In this document: in pieces, positions 8,008 through 16,113 of the stretch
Position numbering within the stretch: position 1 is the first letter of the stretch
How the letters are laid out: the number at the start of each line of letters is the position of its first letter
Source: Duganella sp. Root1480D1
GTDB taxonomy: Bacteria > Pseudomonadota > Gammaproteobacteria > Burkholderiales > Burkholderiaceae_D
Reading direction: 5' to 3'
Length of the DNA stretch: 64,000 nucleotides
Assembly (NCBI RefSeq): GCF_001427305.1
Contig: NZ_LMFZ01000012.1
Coordinates: 248,001-312,000, forward strand
Notes under the pieces: model-generated
Databases searched by the model: none
What the model was told of the DNA's origin: nothing
The model's input: the letters and a program-made list of their open reading frames with translations, nothing else
Translations under genes and position numbers: made by a program

Positions 8008-11000
8008 ATGAGCTGGTTGAAAATGCCGTGGTCTATCCGCGGCGTTGTTGCGCGCGACGAGCGTGAGTGGCGTAAAGCGAACGTAGACAGACGACGGCTG
8101 GCATTTTCAAGACTTGAGCGAGAGTTGCTATTTGCCGGAGAACACCCGTTCCGGTTTGTTATTTCCCTGCTTGCACTTCAGTTAGTGCTCCTTTGTTTGG
8201 CCAGCGTTCTGCCGAGCGACTGGTTCACCCCCCCTTGGGTTAATTGGGAAGCTGCCGAGCAGTTCACCTATTTTTCTACTCTCTGGACTGTCCAGGTGAC
8301 ACTGGTAGCGCTTGTTTATCCTCTTGTCATTGCTTTCGTCGCCGTTTTCCTCCAACGTCGCCCGGCGGCCGAAGTCTTTGTACACCTTTACATGTTGGAC
8401 TCTGGCGCATTAGCCGCAGGGCTATCGTCTGTCGTCCTGGTCGTCGTGATGAGTATTCAGTATCTGATGCTTACCACGTGGGGACTAGCCGCGCTACCTA
8501 GTTGGACGGCATTAGACACGGTGTGGTTTTTGCTGAACGCCGCCTTAACTACATTCTTCCTATATCGTACCGTTGAGTTTTTACTCCCTGAAGTGCAGGC
8601 GAGAGTGGTTCAGCGATACATGGTCAGTGTTGCGCTTCCACGCGACGTTAGCCGACTTAACTCCTATCAAGTGCTTGCAGGGTCTCAAGCACGAGGTTGG
8701 ATACCAATTCCAGACTATGCTGACGAGTCAACCCCGAACAGTCCGACTATGCTTATCGGGCGCTTCGGATTTAGGGATGGGGATGCTCAAGGTACGGTTG
8801 GATTGTCGGGACCTCATCGCTTAGTCAATGTGCGCTTGTGGTTGATGCGAGCCGTCGCGACAAGCTGGTACCGCCGGGCCAAGAAAGCTACACAGTCGCA
8901 GCCAAATACAGGCCCTTCGGAGCAGAGGCCAGTGCTTACGTTCCCACTGACTCCAGGTACTGTTTCAGAGGGAGAGGTTTGTTTGGCTAGAGTTGCGCAT
9001 GGGCCCTCGCTCGGGTGGTGGCACCTCTTAATGCTGCGATGGTCGCTCGTATTTCGTCCTCTTGAGAGAGAGCGTTTTGGCATTCGAGTCCAGGCCATTC
9101 TCGAAGAACTTGCGTCGGACGCAAGACAGGCAGCATCAATTGGAAACAGCGAATCCTTCGAGCGCAGTTACAACACTCTTGTGAACATGCATGAGCTACT
9201 GCTCAATGCTTGTTTGGACCGTGATGATGTGGGTGAGCTAAATAGCTGGGCAATGCTTCCGGACCCGCAAACCTTTGCCGGTCGGCGACTTCACGAAAGC
9301 TGGAGCGAAATTTATCGAGGTGTGTTTGAAGCGGCAATCCACAATGTTATCCACGATACGCGTCCTCTGCGGCGTCTGTGTCATCTTCTCCAGCATCTGG
9401 ACAGCAAACAGCTTCGTAGCTCCCCTGTGAGAATACAAGAGCATCTGCTTCACTTACCTCCACTTATGATGTACCTCTTGGGGAATTGGTGGTCTCAACG
9501 TGTTGAAGAACAAGGGGTTCTGGTGCACGACGTCTTTAACGCTGTGCTGTTGCGGCCGCCTTTGAATCGAGTGTATGAAGAGGTACTCTCCAGCTTTGTA
9601 AGCGGGTGGGAAAACGGCAGACCAAGTAGGGGACGTATTCGTCAAGAGGATATTCTTCCGGATTGGAGCGCTCTTCCAAATGCGGCGCGACTAAATGCGA
9701 AACATATAGATGAAACAGCTCGTATGCTATTGGCGGCAGTTCATCAAGGGGACGTAGCCGCCGCTGAATGGATGGCTGATGTGCTCAATAAGTGGTGGGA
9801 TACATTTGACTTTGAACACGAGCCCCACCAGCTTTACAACAAAACCGCGTTCATAACTCTCGACCATCTCGAGCTTGATTGGGCAACCTTTACTAGAACG
9901 TTCGGTATTGAGCAAGACCAAATTTACGGCACTGAACAGTTAACCCAGACGCTTCAGAAAGGCGCATATCTTGCTGCCTTGCGCAATTATTGGTATGACA
10001 TTCGACTGCTTGTTCTTGAACTCCTGATTAACTGGATTCAGCACCATCCTGGCGCTCAGGCAGAGTCGTCCTTGGCTGCTGAGGTTCTTGTAGGGTTCCT
10101 GACCGGAAGACAATGGCGCGGGGGTGGCCGACTTAGCGGGACACTTAGCAGTTTTTCTGCCATTGCATATTTGACGGCGAAGGCTCGTCAATATGCCGCA
10201 ACAGGCGAGTGGTCAGCGGGGTATGTAGCGCGGCTCAACAGTTTTGTTGAACATGTTAAAGATATGCGCAGACCTAATATGGTAAGTTCGCGGGTTTACT
10301 CTTTTAGCGGAGCGGACGATGTCGAGTCATTGCAAGACGCTCAACTCGCATTTTTTGCGATGTTAACTAGTGGTGCCTGGCGCATTCCAGAGCCCTTTTA
10401 TCGTCAAATTGACTTGTGGCTTATTGACCAATACCGCAGCGTTGAGATTCTACGGGAGCGTTTCCGAGCCTGGATTGAGCGCCTTGATACTGAACCATCG
10501 GTTAGTACGGACACGGTTTCCGACCTAAAAGGCCGCGTTAGACCCGACATGAATATTGTAGATGCTTGGGATGCCGTCAGGGCAGGTTTACGGGCTGTCC
10601 TGGACGCTGTCGAGGTGAGAAGAGAGGAGGTACTGGCAGCGCAGCCTATCAGTATGGAACGCTTGCTTGAGATTGCTTCGTTTGCGTCTTCGACCGGGTT
10701 TACTGGTGAGGATGGCGGATTTCCACTGCAATTGTTAACAATTAGGACTACCGAAGAGGAACTGCAGCCGTTCACATTGACGATGCGTGAGGTCAGGAGG
10801 GGCGAACTGACTGAACTTGAAATGGAGCCACGGGCAATTAATGAATCTGACAGCTATGCCGAGAGTGTGGCACGCCAAGTCAGACTGGTAGTACTTGCAG
10901 ATATCCTTCATCTATGTACGATTCGAGAAGTGCTGGCGACTACTGCTGAAGCATATTGGCAAGCGCTAAAAGCTGAAGCAGCGAGGATGGTATCCAGGGG

Positions 11001-11379
11001 AGCTCGCCCCATCCTTCTCCTTGATAATGCAACCCGTCCTGACTGGGTATGGGATTGGCAGCACCCAGATTACGGCGCCGATTACAGCCGTCCGGATGAC
11101 CTTCAGCTGCAGCGTTTGGAAGGCAACGGGGACGACTATGTGTGTCATTTTAACGAAATAGCAGTCTTCGTCGCACCATTGACTTCTGGGCAATCTATTC
11201 TTATGGCCCGAGAAACGTTTGAAGACGTAACGTTCACCGAGTACAGGCCTGGGCAATGTGTACAAGCCCAAGTTGAAGAGCTAGCCGAAAGACGAAATCT
11301 CGTAGACCTTCGGCTAACCTTCTCCCGGCGCGTTACCGTGGGCGATGTTGATGCTGTACGTCTGCGGTACCTTGAATAA
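8008..11379 (+). CDS. Large four-TM membrane protein of unknown function (element cargo)
   Basis: The 1123-residue product has four hydrophobic segments near residues 48-68, 95-115, 132-154 and 170-190, then more than 900 residues that look soluble and mostly helical. I see no nuclease, helicase, kinase or transporter motif and no Walker motif in that part, and I do not recognise the family. It is the largest gene of the element and its most AT-rich, and it appears to form an operon with the 78-aa gene before it. Large proteins of unknown function in this position of mobilizable elements are often defence or host-interaction genes. That is inference from location only. TMs 1-4 suggest the soluble part lies in the cytoplasm. 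Confidence 0.85.
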   Translation: MSWLKMPWSIRGVVARDEREWRKANVDRRRLAFSRLERELLFAGEHPFRFVISLLALQLVLLCLASVLPSDWFTPPWVNWEAAEQFTYFSTLWTVQVTLVALVYPLVIAFVAVFLQRRPAAEVFVHLYMLDSGALAAGLSSVVLVVVMSIQYLMLTTWGLAALPSWTALDTVWFLLNAALTTFFLYRTVEFLLPEVQARVVQRYMVSVALPRDVSRLNSYQVLAGSQARGWIPIPDYADESTPNSPTMLIGRFGFRDGDAQGTVGLSGPHRLVNVRLWLMRAVATSWYRRAKKATQSQPNTGPSEQRPVLTFPLTPGTVSEGEVCLARVAHGPSLGWWHLLMLRWSLVFRPLERERFGIRVQAILEELASDARQAASIGNSESFERSYNTLVNMHELLLNACLDRDDVGELNSWAMLPDPQTFAGRRLHESWSEIYRGVFEAAIHNVIHDTRPLRRLCHLLQHLDSKQLRSSPVRIQEHLLHLPPLMMYLLGNWWSQRVEEQGVLVHDVFNAVLLRPPLNRVYEEVLSSFVSGWENGRPSRGRIRQEDILPDWSALPNAARLNAKHIDETARMLLAAVHQGDVAAAEWMADVLNKWWDTFDFEHEPHQLYNKTAFITLDHLELDWATFTRTFGIEQDQIYGTEQLTQTLQKGAYLAALRNYWYDIRLLVLELLINWIQHHPGAQAESSLAAEVLVGFLTGRQWRGGGRLSGTLSSFSAIAYLTAKARQYAATGEWSAGYVARLNSFVEHVKDMRRPNMVSSRVYSFSGADDVESLQDAQLAFFAMLTSGAWRIPEPFYRQIDLWLIDQYRSVEILRERFRAWIERLDTEPSVSTDTVSDLKGRVRPDMNIVDAWDAVRAGLRAVLDAVEVRREEVLAAQPISMERLLEIASFASSTGFTGEDGGFPLQLLTIRTTEEELQPFTLTMREVRRGELTELEMEPRAINESDSYAESVARQVRLVVLADILHLCTIREVLATTAEAYWQALKAEAARMVSRGARPILLLDNATRPDWVWDWQHPDYGADYSRPDDLQLQRLEGNGDDYVCHFNEIAVFVAPLTSGQSILMARETFEDVTFTEYRPGQCVQAQVEELAERRNLVDLRLTFSRRVTVGDVDAVRLRYLE

Positions 11380-12056: not shown

Positions 12057-12060
12057 TTTA

Positions 12061-12086
12061 AAGCCCAGCCTAGCGCTGGGCTTTTT
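12061..12086 (+). terminator. Displaced native terminator of tRNA-His
   Basis: AAGCCCAGC (12061-12069) pairs with GCTGGGCTT (12075-12083), followed by a run of T. It sits five bases beyond attR, where it would have ended tRNA-His transcription before the element inserted. Part of it may now terminate transcripts leaving the element. Confidence 0.85.
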
Positions 12087-12142: not shown

Positions 12143-13066
12143 GTGGACTTCCAGTCATTGAATTGCCCGCAATGTGGCGGCGTGCTTCCGCGCCAGGCCA
12201 TCTGGCGCACCGTCGCCTGCCCCTATTGCGACGCCACGGTCACCCGCTCCGATTCAGTCGTCGACGTTGCCCGCTTCCACGAGGCGCTGCAGCGCTTTCG
12301 GAACGATCCTGCCGGCCAGGATGCCCGCTGCGGGGAACGGCGCTACCGCATCATCCGCCAGTTGTACCAGGGCGCCGATTCGCGCGTCATGCTGGCGCGG
12401 CGCTGCGGACGCCTGGGCGAACACGTGGTGCTCAAATACGCCGATGCCGCAAAACTGGAGCGGGAACACGGCGTCCTGCGCCAGCTCCAGGCAGATACAT
12501 CGTCGGGCTCCGCCTATTTCTCGCAGCGCCTGCCGGAATCGGTCGCACTGGGCCCGGACGGCAACGGCGGCACAGTGCTCGCGTTGCGCCACCCGCCGGG
12601 CTATTGGGGCAGCCTGTCCGAAGTGCACCGTCACTACGGCACCGGCCTCGATGCACGCCATGTGGTCTGGATGTGGCGCCGCGTGCTTGAAGTATTGGCG
12701 CATGTGCACAGCATCGGCTGGAGCCATGGCGCTGTAAGCCTGGAACATATGCTGGTGCATCCTGCCGACCATGGCGTCTTCCTGGTCGGCTGGTCCCGTG
12801 CAAAACGCCATGGCGACCAGGCGCGCGACCTGATGCAGTCTGCATGGAGCATGCGCGCCCTGCTGGCCGGCCAGCGCACTGGCGACGATGCGCCAGCCCT
12901 GCCGGCATCGGTGCCGGCGCCACTGGCGGAACTGTTGCAGCGCGCTTCTTCCGATGCGCACTGGCTGAGGGCGCAGGGCGCCGCCGGCTTGCACTACGAA
13001 GCCACCAGCGCGGCGGCTGCCGCTTTCGGCCCGCCACGCTTCCTTCACTTCCACCCAACACACTAA
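12143..13066 (+). CDS. Zinc-ribbon protein with a protein-kinase-like domain, probable pseudokinase
   Basis: The 307-residue product opens with a four-Cys zinc ribbon (CPQC at 8-11, CPYC at 26-29). A kinase-like fold follows, with a glycine-loop-like QGADSRV near 76-82, VLK with Lys98, and a helical lobe. The catalytic loop reads SHGAVSLEHMLV (194-205) where active kinases have HxDLKPxN, so the catalytic Asp is Ala and the Lys is absent. The DFG position reads LVGW. This points to a nucleotide-binding or regulatory pseudokinase. It starts with GTG after AGGA and is followed 19 bases later by the vWA gene, so the two likely act together. Confidence 0.8.
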   Translation: MDFQSLNCPQCGGVLPRQAIWRTVACPYCDATVTRSDSVVDVARFHEALQRFRNDPAGQDARCGERRYRIIRQLYQGADSRVMLARRCGRLGEHVVLKYADAAKLEREHGVLRQLQADTSSGSAYFSQRLPESVALGPDGNGGTVLALRHPPGYWGSLSEVHRHYGTGLDARHVVWMWRRVLEVLAHVHSIGWSHGAVSLEHMLVHPADHGVFLVGWSRAKRHGDQARDLMQSAWSMRALLAGQRTGDDAPALPASVPAPLAELLQRASSDAHWLRAQGAAGLHYEATSAAAAAFGPPRFLHFHPTH

Positions 13067-13085
13067 TCGTATCCAGAGGAGCCAA

Positions 13086-14063
13086 ATGGGCCACGGTAAC
13101 TACTCCTTCTCAGCGCACGCCGCCCTGGTCGCCGACCGGGCATCCGCATCGCGCAGCCAGGTATTCCAGCAAAATTCCTGCCATCCGCTGATGAACCCCA
13201 AGGGCATCAAGATGCGCGAGTCGCGCGACAACGCCGACCATCCGAATTCTCTGGGCATCGTCTTTGCGCTCGACGTCACCGGCTCGATGGGCGATATCCC
13301 GGAGCAGTTGGCGACCAAGGAGCTGCCGACCTTCATGCGCCTGTTGACGGCCTGCGGCGTCGCCGACCCGCAAATCCAGTTCATGGCGATCGGCGACGCC
13401 ACCTGCGACGACGCGCCCTTGCAGGTCGGACAGTTTGAATCGACCGCGGAGCTGATGGACCAGTGGCTGACCTGGAGCTATATCGAAGGCGGCGGCGGCG
13501 GTTCGAGCGAAGAAAGCTATGAGCTCGCCTTCTACATGGCAGCCCAGCATACCGACCTCGATTGCTGGGTAAAACGCCGCAAAAAAGGCTACCTGTTTTT
13601 GACCGGCGATGAACTGCCCTACCCTGCCATTTCGCGCCACCAGATCGAAACGCTGGTTGGCGACCGCCTGGACGAGGATTTGCCGATCAAAGAAGTGATC
13701 GCTGCTGCTTCCGAAACCTTTCACCTGTTCTTCCTGATCCCCGACCTGCACCGCCGCCAGCGTTGCGAAGCGCGTTGGCGCGAGCTCCTGGGCGACCACG
13801 TGATCTGCATGGAAGCGCCGCAAGATGCCTGCGCTGTAGCCGCCTCCATCGTTGCGCTGACCGAAGGCGCCTTGCCAAAGCTGGATGCATTGCCAGGCGT
13901 ACTGTCCGGCGAAGGAATTGATGGCAGCCGCGTTTCCGCCATCGTGCGGTCCCTGCGGCCATATGCCGCCTTGCTGGAAGGCGGCACGGCGCACGAGATT
14001 CCGGTGTCGTCGCCCGCCGTGGCGCTGGGCGAGCGTCCTTGGTGGAGGCGTCTGTTTGGTTGA
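13086..14063 (+). CDS. von Willebrand factor A domain protein
   Basis: The 325-residue soluble product carries a MIDAS-type motif DVTGSM at residues 63-68 inside IVFALDVTGSMGD, so it probably binds a divalent metal and a partner protein. The first 55 residues are conserved-looking (NPKGIKMRESRDN). There is no signal peptide or TM. It lies between the pseudokinase and the PurA-like gene. Its TGA overlaps the TTG start of the latter, and the GGAGG used by that gene lies inside its own coding end. TerY-type vWA proteins also pair with kinases, which gives a precedent for such a trio. Confidence 0.88.
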   Translation: MGHGNYSFSAHAALVADRASASRSQVFQQNSCHPLMNPKGIKMRESRDNADHPNSLGIVFALDVTGSMGDIPEQLATKELPTFMRLLTACGVADPQIQFMAIGDATCDDAPLQVGQFESTAELMDQWLTWSYIEGGGGGSSEESYELAFYMAAQHTDLDCWVKRRKKGYLFLTGDELPYPAISRHQIETLVGDRLDEDLPIKEVIAAASETFHLFFLIPDLHRRQRCEARWRELLGDHVICMEAPQDACAVAASIVALTEGALPKLDALPGVLSGEGIDGSRVSAIVRSLRPYAALLEGGTAHEIPVSSPAVALGERPWWRRLFG

Positions 14064-15378
14064 GGGCAGGATCGTATCGGTCATCGGACTGGCCTTCGGT
14101 GACTGCGGCAAGGGCTTGTTCACGGACTACCTTTGCCGCGTCAAATCGGCGCACACCGTCATGCGTTTCAACGGCGGCGGCCAGGCGGGGCACAACGTGG
14201 TCCTGCCTGATGGCCGACATCACACCTTCTCCCAGTTCGGCGCCGGCACCTTCAATCCCGGCGTCGCGACAGTCCTGTCGGCGCCGGTCGTGGTTCACCC
14301 CACGGCCTTGCTGGTCGAAGAAAGCTACCTGCAGCGCGCGGGCGTCAGCGATGCGCTGAATCGCCTGTTCATCGACGCGCGCTGCCTCGTCACCACGCCC
14401 TACCACGAAGCAGCGGGCCGCCTGCGCGAACGCGCGCGCGGCGCTGCTGCGCATGGAAGCTGCGGCGTAGGCTTCGGCGAAACCGTGGGCCACGCGCTGG
14501 CCCAGCCCGAACAGGCACTGCGCTATGCCGACCTGCTGCATCCTTCGCGCGCGCGCGACAAACTGGACGCCATGCGCCACAGCCTGCGCGCTTCGCTGCC
14601 CGGCGATATCGCGGCGCTGAACCCGCAAGACGCAGCGATCCTCGACGATCCCGGTTTTGGTTTGCTATGGCTCGAACATGCGCAACGCCTCGTCGCGAAA
14701 GTGCCGCCGTCCGCGTCCGAACAAATCGCCGCGCAGCTGGTGCGCGCCGGCAGCATCGTGATGGAAGGCGCGCAAGGCATGCTGCTCGACGAATGGCACG
14801 GCTTCCACCCGCATACGACGTGGAGCAGCACCGGCCCCGCCGCAGCCGAAGCTGCACTGGCGGGCTACGGCCTGTCCGAGCGCATTACGCATCTCGGCGC
14901 CACGCGCAGCTACCTTACTCGTCACGGCCAAGGCCCCATGCCGACCGAGGACCAGGCCATGCAAGTCCTGGCAGAACCGCATAACGCCGACAGTGGCTGG
15001 CAGGGCCGCTTCCGCCGCGGCCATCCCGACGCCGCGCTGCTGCGCTATGCGCTCGCCGCCGCCGGCCGCATCGACGGCCTGCTGGTCAGCCACCTCGACG
15101 CATTCGCAGGCGCAACCAACCTGCGCTGGTCCCACAGCTACAGCGTGCACGGCCGCGAAGTCCGCGAGCTCCCGTCAGCCACCCGCCCGGACCTAACGCA
15201 CACGGCAGCGCTTTGCGAGCTGCTGAACGCCGCCAGCCCAAATTACGCCACAGCCCCCATCGCCAACGCCGACGCATTCCTGCGCGAACTGCAAGCCATC
15301 ACCAAGCTGCCAGTCGTCCTCGGCTCACACGGCCCCACTTGGCACGATGTTGTGGCACCTCCCGGATATAGGGCGTGA
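14056..15378 (+). CDS. Divergent adenylosuccinate-synthetase-like enzyme (PurA paralogue)
   Basis: PurA couples IMP and aspartate using GTP. This 440-residue relative keeps the fold's landmarks: GDCGKG (Asp16, Lys19) in place of GDEGKG, QAGHN with His46 in place of NAGHT, EGAQG near residue 237, and LRYALAAAGRIDGLLVSHLD near the C-terminus. The loop that binds aspartate in PurA (TTTGRPRR) reads SGWQGRFRR. Key catalytic residues remain, so an active ligase with a changed amine or nucleotide substrate is likely. I chose TTG 14056: GGAGG at 14044-14048 is seven bases upstream and the start overlaps the vWA stop. No ATG or GTG is available before the conserved N-terminus. Confidence 0.85.
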   Translation: MVEGRIVSVIGLAFGDCGKGLFTDYLCRVKSAHTVMRFNGGGQAGHNVVLPDGRHHTFSQFGAGTFNPGVATVLSAPVVVHPTALLVEESYLQRAGVSDALNRLFIDARCLVTTPYHEAAGRLRERARGAAAHGSCGVGFGETVGHALAQPEQALRYADLLHPSRARDKLDAMRHSLRASLPGDIAALNPQDAAILDDPGFGLLWLEHAQRLVAKVPPSASEQIAAQLVRAGSIVMEGAQGMLLDEWHGFHPHTTWSSTGPAAAEAALAGYGLSERITHLGATRSYLTRHGQGPMPTEDQAMQVLAEPHNADSGWQGRFRRGHPDAALLRYALAAAGRIDGLLVSHLDAFAGATNLRWSHSYSVHGREVRELPSATRPDLTHTAALCELLNAASPNYATAPIANADAFLRELQAITKLPVVLGSHGPTWHDVVAPPGYRA

Positions 15379-15408: not shown

Positions 15409-16113
15409 ATGGATACCTACCCAGTCATTGAATTCCGCCGCTACACGACTGTAGAAGGCGGGCAGGCAGCGTTTTCACGCTATTTCGAAACCCTGTTCCC
15501 GGAAGCCTTCCAGCAACTGGGCGCGCTGGCGCTCGGCCAGTTCACCGAGCGCGGCAATCCGAACAGCTTCCTCTGGATGCGTGGCTTCACCAGTTGGGAG
15601 CAGCGCGCCGTGGTCAACGCCGCCTTTTACTATGGCCCGGTATGGAAGGAGCATAAGGCCACGCTGAACGGGCTGATGACCGACAGCGACAACGTGCTGC
15701 TGCTGCGCCCTTTGCGGCCCGGCGCAGGCGTGCCGGCCATGCCCGCCGTCGATCCGGTGCTGGAGACGGATGGCGCGCAAGGCGAAGTGGTGGCCATCGT
15801 CTGCACCGTCAAGCCCGGCCAGCTGGAACGATTTGCCGAACTGGCAGCGGCTGCCTTCGCCGCATGGAACGACGCCGGCTGGCGCGACGCCGGCACCCTT
15901 GTCACGCTCGACATGCCCAACAATTTCCCGCAATTGCCAGTGCGTGGCGACGGCCCGCACCTGGTGTGGCTGGGCAGCGCCGCGCCAGGCAGCCAGCCAC
16001 CGGCGCTGGAAGTGCTCACTGACGCCGCGCTCGAGCTGTTGCGCGAGCCGCCCGAACGCATCCAGCTGCGCCCGACACATCGTTCGCGCCTCCGATACAA
16101 CACAAAAATTTAA
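15409..16113 (+). CDS. NIPSNAP-like / dimeric alpha-beta barrel protein
   Basis: The 234-residue soluble product begins YPVIEFRRYTTVEGG and continues with WMRGFTSWEQR and YGPVWKEH, typical of NIPSNAP-family ferredoxin-like folds. A second related half begins at VVAIVCTVKPGQLERF. The biochemical role of this family in bacteria is not settled. It starts 31 bases after the PurA-like gene on the same strand and could be the last gene of that operon, although it has no obvious functional link. No membrane segment or signal peptide is visible. Confidence 0.75.
   Translation: MDTYPVIEFRRYTTVEGGQAAFSRYFETLFPEAFQQLGALALGQFTERGNPNSFLWMRGFTSWEQRAVVNAAFYYGPVWKEHKATLNGLMTDSDNVLLLRPLRPGAGVPAMPAVDPVLETDGAQGEVVAIVCTVKPGQLERFAELAAAAFAAWNDAGWRDAGTLVTLDMPNNFPQLPVRGDGPHLVWLGSAAPGSQPPALEVLTDAALELLREPPERIQLRPTHRSRLRYNTKI

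Follow-up and report, generated by a model that had tools for sequence, protein, structure and literature searches.

Adenylosuccinate synthetase, PurA (Pfam PF00709; Escherichia coli structures PDB 1cg1, 1cg3, 1cg4, and 1ade), has a phage-carried relative, PurZ/PurZ0 of the Z-DNA phages, which builds a precursor of 2-aminoadenine according to passages of PMC8342488 and PMC12884076. TerY-P-like sets combine a zinc-ribbon kinase with an adjoining standalone vWA protein and a PP2C phosphatase, as described in parts of PMC7159879, and phages also carry genes for the salvage and reconstitution of nicotinamide adenine dinucleotide (NAD), including NAMPT, Nudix, NADAR, and NARP1. We analyzed a 64,000-nucleotide stretch of Duganella sp. 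Root1480D1 (contig C12, positions 248001 to 312000; here called the window) in which three adjacent genes on the + strand are predicted to encode a zinc-ribbon pseudokinase, a vWA protein, and a divergent PurA-like enzyme. This operon is real and is a widely conserved module of bacteria and large phages; the aspartate loop and nucleotide pocket of its PurA-like protein are changed across the family, and in a minority of loci the module is linked to NAD genes beyond chance. Searches of the open-licence PubMed Central literature found no description of the three-gene combination, in agreement with the initial annotation, a reading of the DNA letters alone that had proposed the operon and knew of no described pathway with these parts.

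Gene 1 (12143 to 13066) has a GTG start and gene 2 (13086 to 14063) an ATG start, according to the list of open reading frames (ORFs) and the sequence. Gene 3 (14056 to 15378) likely starts at the TTG at 14056; its mechanical ORF begins at an ATG at 13885, within gene 2. The tight packing proposed earlier was exact for the 19-base gap between the gene 1 stop, which ends at 13066, and the gene 2 ATG at 13086, and the proposed start/stop overlap of genes 2 and 3 amounts to 8 bases (gene 2 stop at 14061 to 14063) if TTG 14056 is the true start codon of gene 3.

A vWA profile scan found at least 526 relatives among genome contigs and another 142 among viral contigs, and the conservation sample leans to close relatives because only the best-scoring 79 and 80 loci, respectively, were retained. 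Loci fetched in this analysis carry L-number labels. L001, L002, and L168 to L175 (the window genome or family genomes already seen) were excluded before counting, minimum ORF lengths were 70 residues in gene lists and 100 residues in neighbor lists, and some of the fetched bacterial and viral stretches end at contig ends. Among 80 bacterial loci, the window included, all three genes were present at 70, vWA and PurA only at 1, kinase and vWA only at 5, and vWA alone at 4. The trio was found in nine named phyla, and all three genes were also present in six plasmid or phage-record loci (Variovorax, Rhodococcus, Tsukamurella, Acetobacter, Agrobacterium, and Mycobacterium phage Pleione). Across the bacterial family to which the window belongs, the vWA gene was sporadic (14 of 195 genomes), and among the named organisms of the contig scan Pseudoduganella violaceinigra (L009) was closest, with a vWA protein that is 91% identical. 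The co-occurrence beyond close relatives by which the initial annotation had wished its operon to be judged was therefore found, across phyla and also in phages.

When viral loci were collected from the vWA side, vWA and PurA were present together in 77 of 80; two of the 80 loci (L088 and L089, vWA 72% identical to the window's) look bacterial although counted as viral. A kinase-like gene was present in 27 of the 80, and 51 had vWA and PurA with no detected kinase, some of them ended by the contig. A scan from the PurA side gave 388 viral PurA relatives; in the 80 loci examined, a vWA gene was present in 77 stretches and a kinase-profile match in 60, all 77 vWA-PurA pairs were on the same strand, and 75 were ordered vWA then PurA. 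In the three loci with no vWA gene, the PurA gene was less than 1 kb from the stretch end. The two viral sets have 16 contigs in common by name. Pairwise distances of the vWA and PurA proteins correlated with an r of 0.79 over 115 pairs (shuffled maximum, 0.08), as is expected when the two travel together. PHROGs families phrog_1211, phrog_2971, and phrog_3043 match the three module proteins of mycobacteriophage Pleione, and the PHROGs listing does not join them into one system; the phrog_1211 label "2-aminooxy adenylosuccinate synthetase" has been copied onto phage records and received no support in this analysis.

Gene 3 matched the Pfam family Adenylsucc_synt (PF00709) at 3.2e-62 and fell below the NCBIfam PurA equivalog cut-offs (176 bits versus 402 and 153 bits versus 396). 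The earlier label "divergent PurA-like" is correct, since the Pfam match is strong yet the equivalog cut-offs were missed. The model of gene 3 (predicted local distance difference test [pLDDT] score, 94.3) gave template-modeling scores of about 0.82 to E. coli PurA complexes and 0.47 to 0.61 to PurZ chains. A second PurA of the genome, at 505053 to 506309 of contig C1, is 35% identical to gene 3 and 51 to 66% identical to the PurA proteins of 30 other genomes searched, and gene 3 is thus not the sole PurA of the genome, which was part of the case that the initial annotation had held against its own proposal. In a quick 64-row tree, a branch of length 1.95, with a support of 100 in the Shimodaira-Hasegawa-like approximate likelihood ratio test (SH-aLRT), separated the 47 rows of the PurA-like family from E. 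coli PurA, S-2L PurZ, and 15 of the 30 PurAs fetched. The family branch excludes PurZ, whose position in the tree is unsure because its single row is a very long branch. A tree of 767 PF00709 sequences described in passages of PMC12884076 has a named PurA group of 251 and a named PurZ group of 151, leaving 365 unnamed by subtraction, and the family to which gene 3 belongs may be among these.

Residues were counted over 115 members of the family, each representing a group formed at 80% vWA identity, after alignment to E. coli PurA, whose numbering is used here; PurA rows of fewer than 300 residues were left out of the alignment. Besides the fold and the P-loop, the family shares with PurA the phosphoryl-transfer residues Asp13 (113 of 113 rows that have a residue at this position), Lys16 (113 of 113), His41 (114 of 114), and Gln224 (114 of 115), and the GTP-site Asp333 was retained in 113 of 115 members. 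In the aspartate loop, the Arg303 column was empty in all 115 members, Thr301 was replaced by Gln in 113, Thr300 was aromatic in 107, and Arg305 was Arg in none; we take Thr300, Thr301, Arg303, and Arg305 to be the aspartate-binding residues of PurA. One reference title names the aspartate-site arginines, and titles of crystal structures cover the R143L and R303L mutants. In the nucleotide pocket, Val273 was His in 115 of 115 members, Arg143 was Arg in only 5 of 115, Asn38 was Gln in 112 of 114, Thr129 was Cys or Val in 114, and position 131 was also changed family-wide. In PurZ structures, according to passages of PMC8342488, a mobile loop contacts aspartate, an arginine of the other subunit pairs with the alpha phosphate, and a valine is near the ribose. 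Given these roles of the pocket residues, together with earlier work on PurA, the family would keep phosphoryl transfer, use a different amine, and hold its nucleotide differently. The PurA-like enzyme is thus probably active and is probably not an adenylosuccinate synthetase. The hypothesis that the locus makes or attaches an adenylosuccinate-like compound was, as worded, not supported, because the aspartate-binding residues of PurA are rebuilt family-wide.

Neighboring genes were scanned with Pfam for 114 bacterial proteins (picked from about 300, a few of them added or retrimmed) and 142 of 378 viral proteins, and the first 25 families of each listing were considered. In bacteria, an NrtR-type NUDIX protein was found at 13 of the 86 loci from outside IMG/VR (12 groups), ten of which were confirmed by PF21906 (NrtR_WHD). 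By coordinate matching, 9 of the 45 NrtR_WHD places in 50 genomes fell within trio loci, compared to 0.11 expected by chance, and these nine came from about five lineages (Massilia, Janthinobacterium, a Rhodocyclales type, Actinomadura, and Planobispora). Relatives of NAPRTase and NadE were present in the related loci L013, L015, and L071. L013 and L015 also have a NadM-Nudix gene, and the order in L013 was NAPRTase, NadE, NadM-Nudix, kinase, vWA, and PurA. One L013 gene was initially read as PncA, a name that was withdrawn after no Pfam match was found at E 0.01. In the Massilia loci L010, L012, and L014, a Band 7/SPFH gene separates the trio from the NUDIX gene of the NrtR type.

A minority of phage loci had genes of phage NAD+ salvage and reconstitution adjacent to the module. 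The row of phage locus L136 consists of NUDIX-WHD, vWA, a second Nudix protein, NAMPT, PurA, and kinase; L222 and L232 have the order NUDIX, NAMPT, vWA, PurA, and kinase; L154 has vWA, PurA, NADAR, and NAMPT; L147 has NAMPT, vWA, PurA, and a macro domain, upstream of which lies a gene of phosphoribosyltransferase type that weakly resembles Prs; and L165 has PurA, NADAR, NadA, and NAD kinase. In 50 long viral contigs, NAPRT/NAMPT was found on 6 and was at most 10 kb from vWA in 4 (0.63 expected; p 0.001), NADAR was found on 7 and within the same distance in 4 (0.74 expected; p 0.003), and NrtR_WHD was found on 1. In a case-control comparison of the fetched stretches, one of seven NAD families was present at 14 of 79 viral PurA-like loci and at none of 80 control loci (Fisher p 3e-5). 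The controls were viral loci of anaerobic ribonucleotide reductase (NrdD) with similar stretch lengths, collected with an NrdD alignment (a single-protein scan gave 7 loci), and L221, a bacterial-type copy, was removed from the count. Placed on a tree of 115 rows, the 19 rows with an NAD link require 15 changes, a raw count made without a shuffled comparison, so that the NAD link is spread over many subclades. Taken together, these results show that, at a minority of loci, the association of the module with NAD genes exceeds chance expectation. Neither this link nor the phage carriers had been seen in the initial annotation. A term search of two NARP papers found no occurrence of PurA, adenylosuccinate, or vWA.

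Of the two partner proteins, that of gene 2 had no vWA family match in Pfam or NCBIfam. Structure prediction had been suggested as a check, and its results for genes 2 and 3 showed vWA and PurA folds, respectively. The AlphaFold2 model of gene 2, built from 42 sequences (pLDDT, 90.4), matched integrin beta-I and von Willebrand factor A3 domains with a probability of 1.00 and a best E value of 2.6e-6, and the DxTxS residues of the metal ion-dependent adhesion site (MIDAS), present in gene 2 as DVTGS at residues 63 to 67, were invariant across the 42 vWA-family sequences. Both the motif and the modeled fold therefore identify gene 2 as the predicted MIDAS vWA protein that had been proposed. Two vWA-family genes per locus were observed in L058, L059, L060, L062, L064, L065, L076, and L077 (myxobacterial and other deltaproteobacterial), and a Gemmataceae stretch with no PurA encodes a 1,498-residue ORF containing a vWA-family domain, possibly a fusion (L085:3374-7870).

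A seven-member profile of gene 1 relatives matched bacterial Ser/Thr kinases, such as StkP, at 1.9e-11, and in gene 1 itself the HRD Asp is replaced by Ala, the catalytic Asn by His, and the DFG Asp by Gly, whereas the ATP-site Lys and alpha-C Glu are retained. With the CxxC...CxxC motif near its N terminus, gene 1 thus has the motifs of a zinc-ribbon pseudokinase, the kinase fold lacking catalytic residues that was originally described. Library scans gave additional weak zinc, PglW, and Kdo-kinase matches for gene 1, and PADLOC gave weak partial matches to gene 1 and none to genes 2 and 3. Fifty kinase-like proteins were chosen from the 108 loci having one; the ATP-site Lys was retained in 45 and the alpha-C Glu in 46. 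In a motif check, none of the 50 had the complete triad of HRD Asp, Asn, and DFG Asp, and the single residues were found in 13, 4, and 11 proteins, respectively. Near the N terminus, 17 had a J-domain HPD motif and 33 a CxxC...CxxC zinc ribbon, with none having both and none having neither. A protein of about 120 residues is encoded immediately upstream of vWA in 25 of the 80 viral loci from the vWA side (e.g., L091:5630-6001) and in 0 of the 27 that have a kinase-like gene (chance, 2.5e-6). It may replace the kinase, since it was never present at kinase-bearing viral loci; its L091 copy had no match in Pfam or PHROGs.

The explanation we prefer, to which we give about an even chance of being right, is that the operon encodes a ligase of PurA fold that is driven by GTP, acts on changed substrates, and functions within or close to NAD/ADP-ribose metabolism, while the vWA scaffold and a pseudokinase bearing either a J domain or a zinc ribbon hold or regulate it. 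Because the catalytic residues are kept, the PurA-like protein is proposed to bind GTP and to phosphorylate a hypoxanthine-type base at its 6-oxo group with the gamma phosphate of GTP. As the aspartate loop is rebuilt, a nucleophile other than free aspartate would then displace the phosphate, and the changes at Arg143 and Asn38 suggest that the 5' phosphate of the nucleotide acted on would be held otherwise than in inosine monophosphate (IMP). The folds of the pseudokinase and vWA proteins suggest noncatalytic roles, in which they would assemble, load, or gate the enzyme on ATP, metal, or a bound peptide. In bacteria the module would serve NAD homeostasis, controlled in some lineages by a nucleotide-sensing repressor of the NrtR type, and some large phages would carry it together with NAD-rebuilding enzymes.

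Several observations weigh against this explanation. At most loci, the window included, no NAD gene was found in the examined stretch, and the one NrtR_WHD gene of this genome is on another contig, C25. The 10-kb limit of the position test was set after the places were seen, the NAD profiles were built from case loci and are biased toward cases, and merging near-copies weakens the case-control contrast to 10 of 67 groups versus 0 of 58 (p 0.0017). The association could also reflect shared regulation or the clustering of nucleotide genes. PurA was absent from the stretch in 9 of the 80 bacterial vWA loci, the HRD Asp persists in the 13 kinase-like proteins noted above, and an inactive or regulatory PurA-like protein is possible.

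Two alternatives concern the chemistry of gene 3. An ordinary adenylosuccinate synthetase paralogue, making the AMP precursor from IMP and aspartate under special conditions with two regulatory partners, would account for the shared fold, the Pfam match, and the conserved Asp13, His41, Lys16, and Gln224, but it would have to work without Arg303 and with Gln at Thr301, His at Val273, and Arg143 in 5 of 115 members, on a long separate branch, and in a genome that has another PurA; we regard it as unlikely. A PurZ-like nucleotide-pool enzyme for modified phage DNA bases, acting by a dGMP or dIMP route and secondary in bacteria, agrees with the many phage carriers and with the kinship of PurZ to PurA. 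However, phage PurZ has Ser at Asp13, which this family keeps in every row with a letter there, the family branch excludes the one PurZ row (itself of unsure placement), and the trio is present at 70 bacterial loci; this alternative is improbable.

The other two alternatives concern the module as a whole. In one, the locus is a TerY-like stress or protein-phosphorylation signaling module with the PurA-like protein as its output enzyme. The resemblance to TerY modules proposed earlier held for the zinc-ribbon kinase fold beside a vWA protein and was otherwise weak: the kinase of the published sets is catalytically active (parts of PMC7159879), whereas here it is inactive by motif, with the full triad absent in 50 of 50 proteins; gene 2 fits no Pfam or NCBIfam vWA family; the PurA-like enzyme takes the place of the phosphatase, with no PP2C among the six window proteins scanned nor among the first 25 of 107 families of relatives; and 51 of the 80 viral loci had no detected kinase, some being ended by the contig. 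A signaling module of this kind is accordingly very doubtful. In the other, phages would use the module to rebuild or protect NAD after host NADase defense, and bacterial copies would be transferred defense or counterdefense modules. This is consistent with the phage loci carrying NAMPT, NADAR, macro domain, NadA, and NAD kinase genes, with the sporadic distribution in the window's family, and with the NAD-rebuilding NARP pathways known in phages from passages of PMC13232231. Conversely, PADLOC gave only the weak kinase matches, and the bacterial copies of L013, L015, and L071 share their loci with relatives of the housekeeping genes for NAPRTase and NadE, so that a device of phage-bacteria conflict has only a small chance of being correct.

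Around the operon, a terminator-like hairpin with a T tail is present just 5' of gene 1 (12060 to 12084, + strand), and a NIPSNAP-family gene follows 30 bases downstream (15409 to 16113); an ORF of equal length is found at the matching position of L009 (9353 to 10057). Upstream, a 1,123-residue protein (8008 to 11379) had no Pfam match above the cut-off, and NCBIfam and PADLOC gave no match to it at E 1. In phages, an R2K-type ATP-grasp gene is downstream of PurA in one group (L110, L115, L132, L134, and L149; by Pfam for L115, the rest as relatives), and TROVE/Ro60-type genes are near the module in six loci (L092, L093, L108, L129, L158, and L159; by Pfam for L158, the rest as relatives).

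In a bolder and rather unlikely form of the ligase explanation, the PurA-like enzyme would carry out an undescribed step of NAD or ADP-ribose metabolism, the GTP-driven activation of a hypoxanthine ring (of an NAD-type dinucleotide, an ADP-ribose relative, or an inosine nucleotide) followed by addition of a nonaspartate amine. In bacteria it would thereby repair or disguise NAD, and giant phages would carry it so that NAD stays usable while they infect, with the J-domain or zinc-ribbon pseudokinase and the vWA protein as the loading machinery. If the module is a PurA-fold ligase with changed substrates, the family, whose relatives in bacteria and large phages number in the hundreds, would join PurA and PurZ as a third functional branch among adenylosuccinate synthetase-type enzymes. 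The NAD link offers an entry to its function, as the pathway is known, the repressor family senses nucleotides, and the chemistry can be assayed, and if phages rebuild or change NAD with the module, it would be an addition to phage counterdefense.

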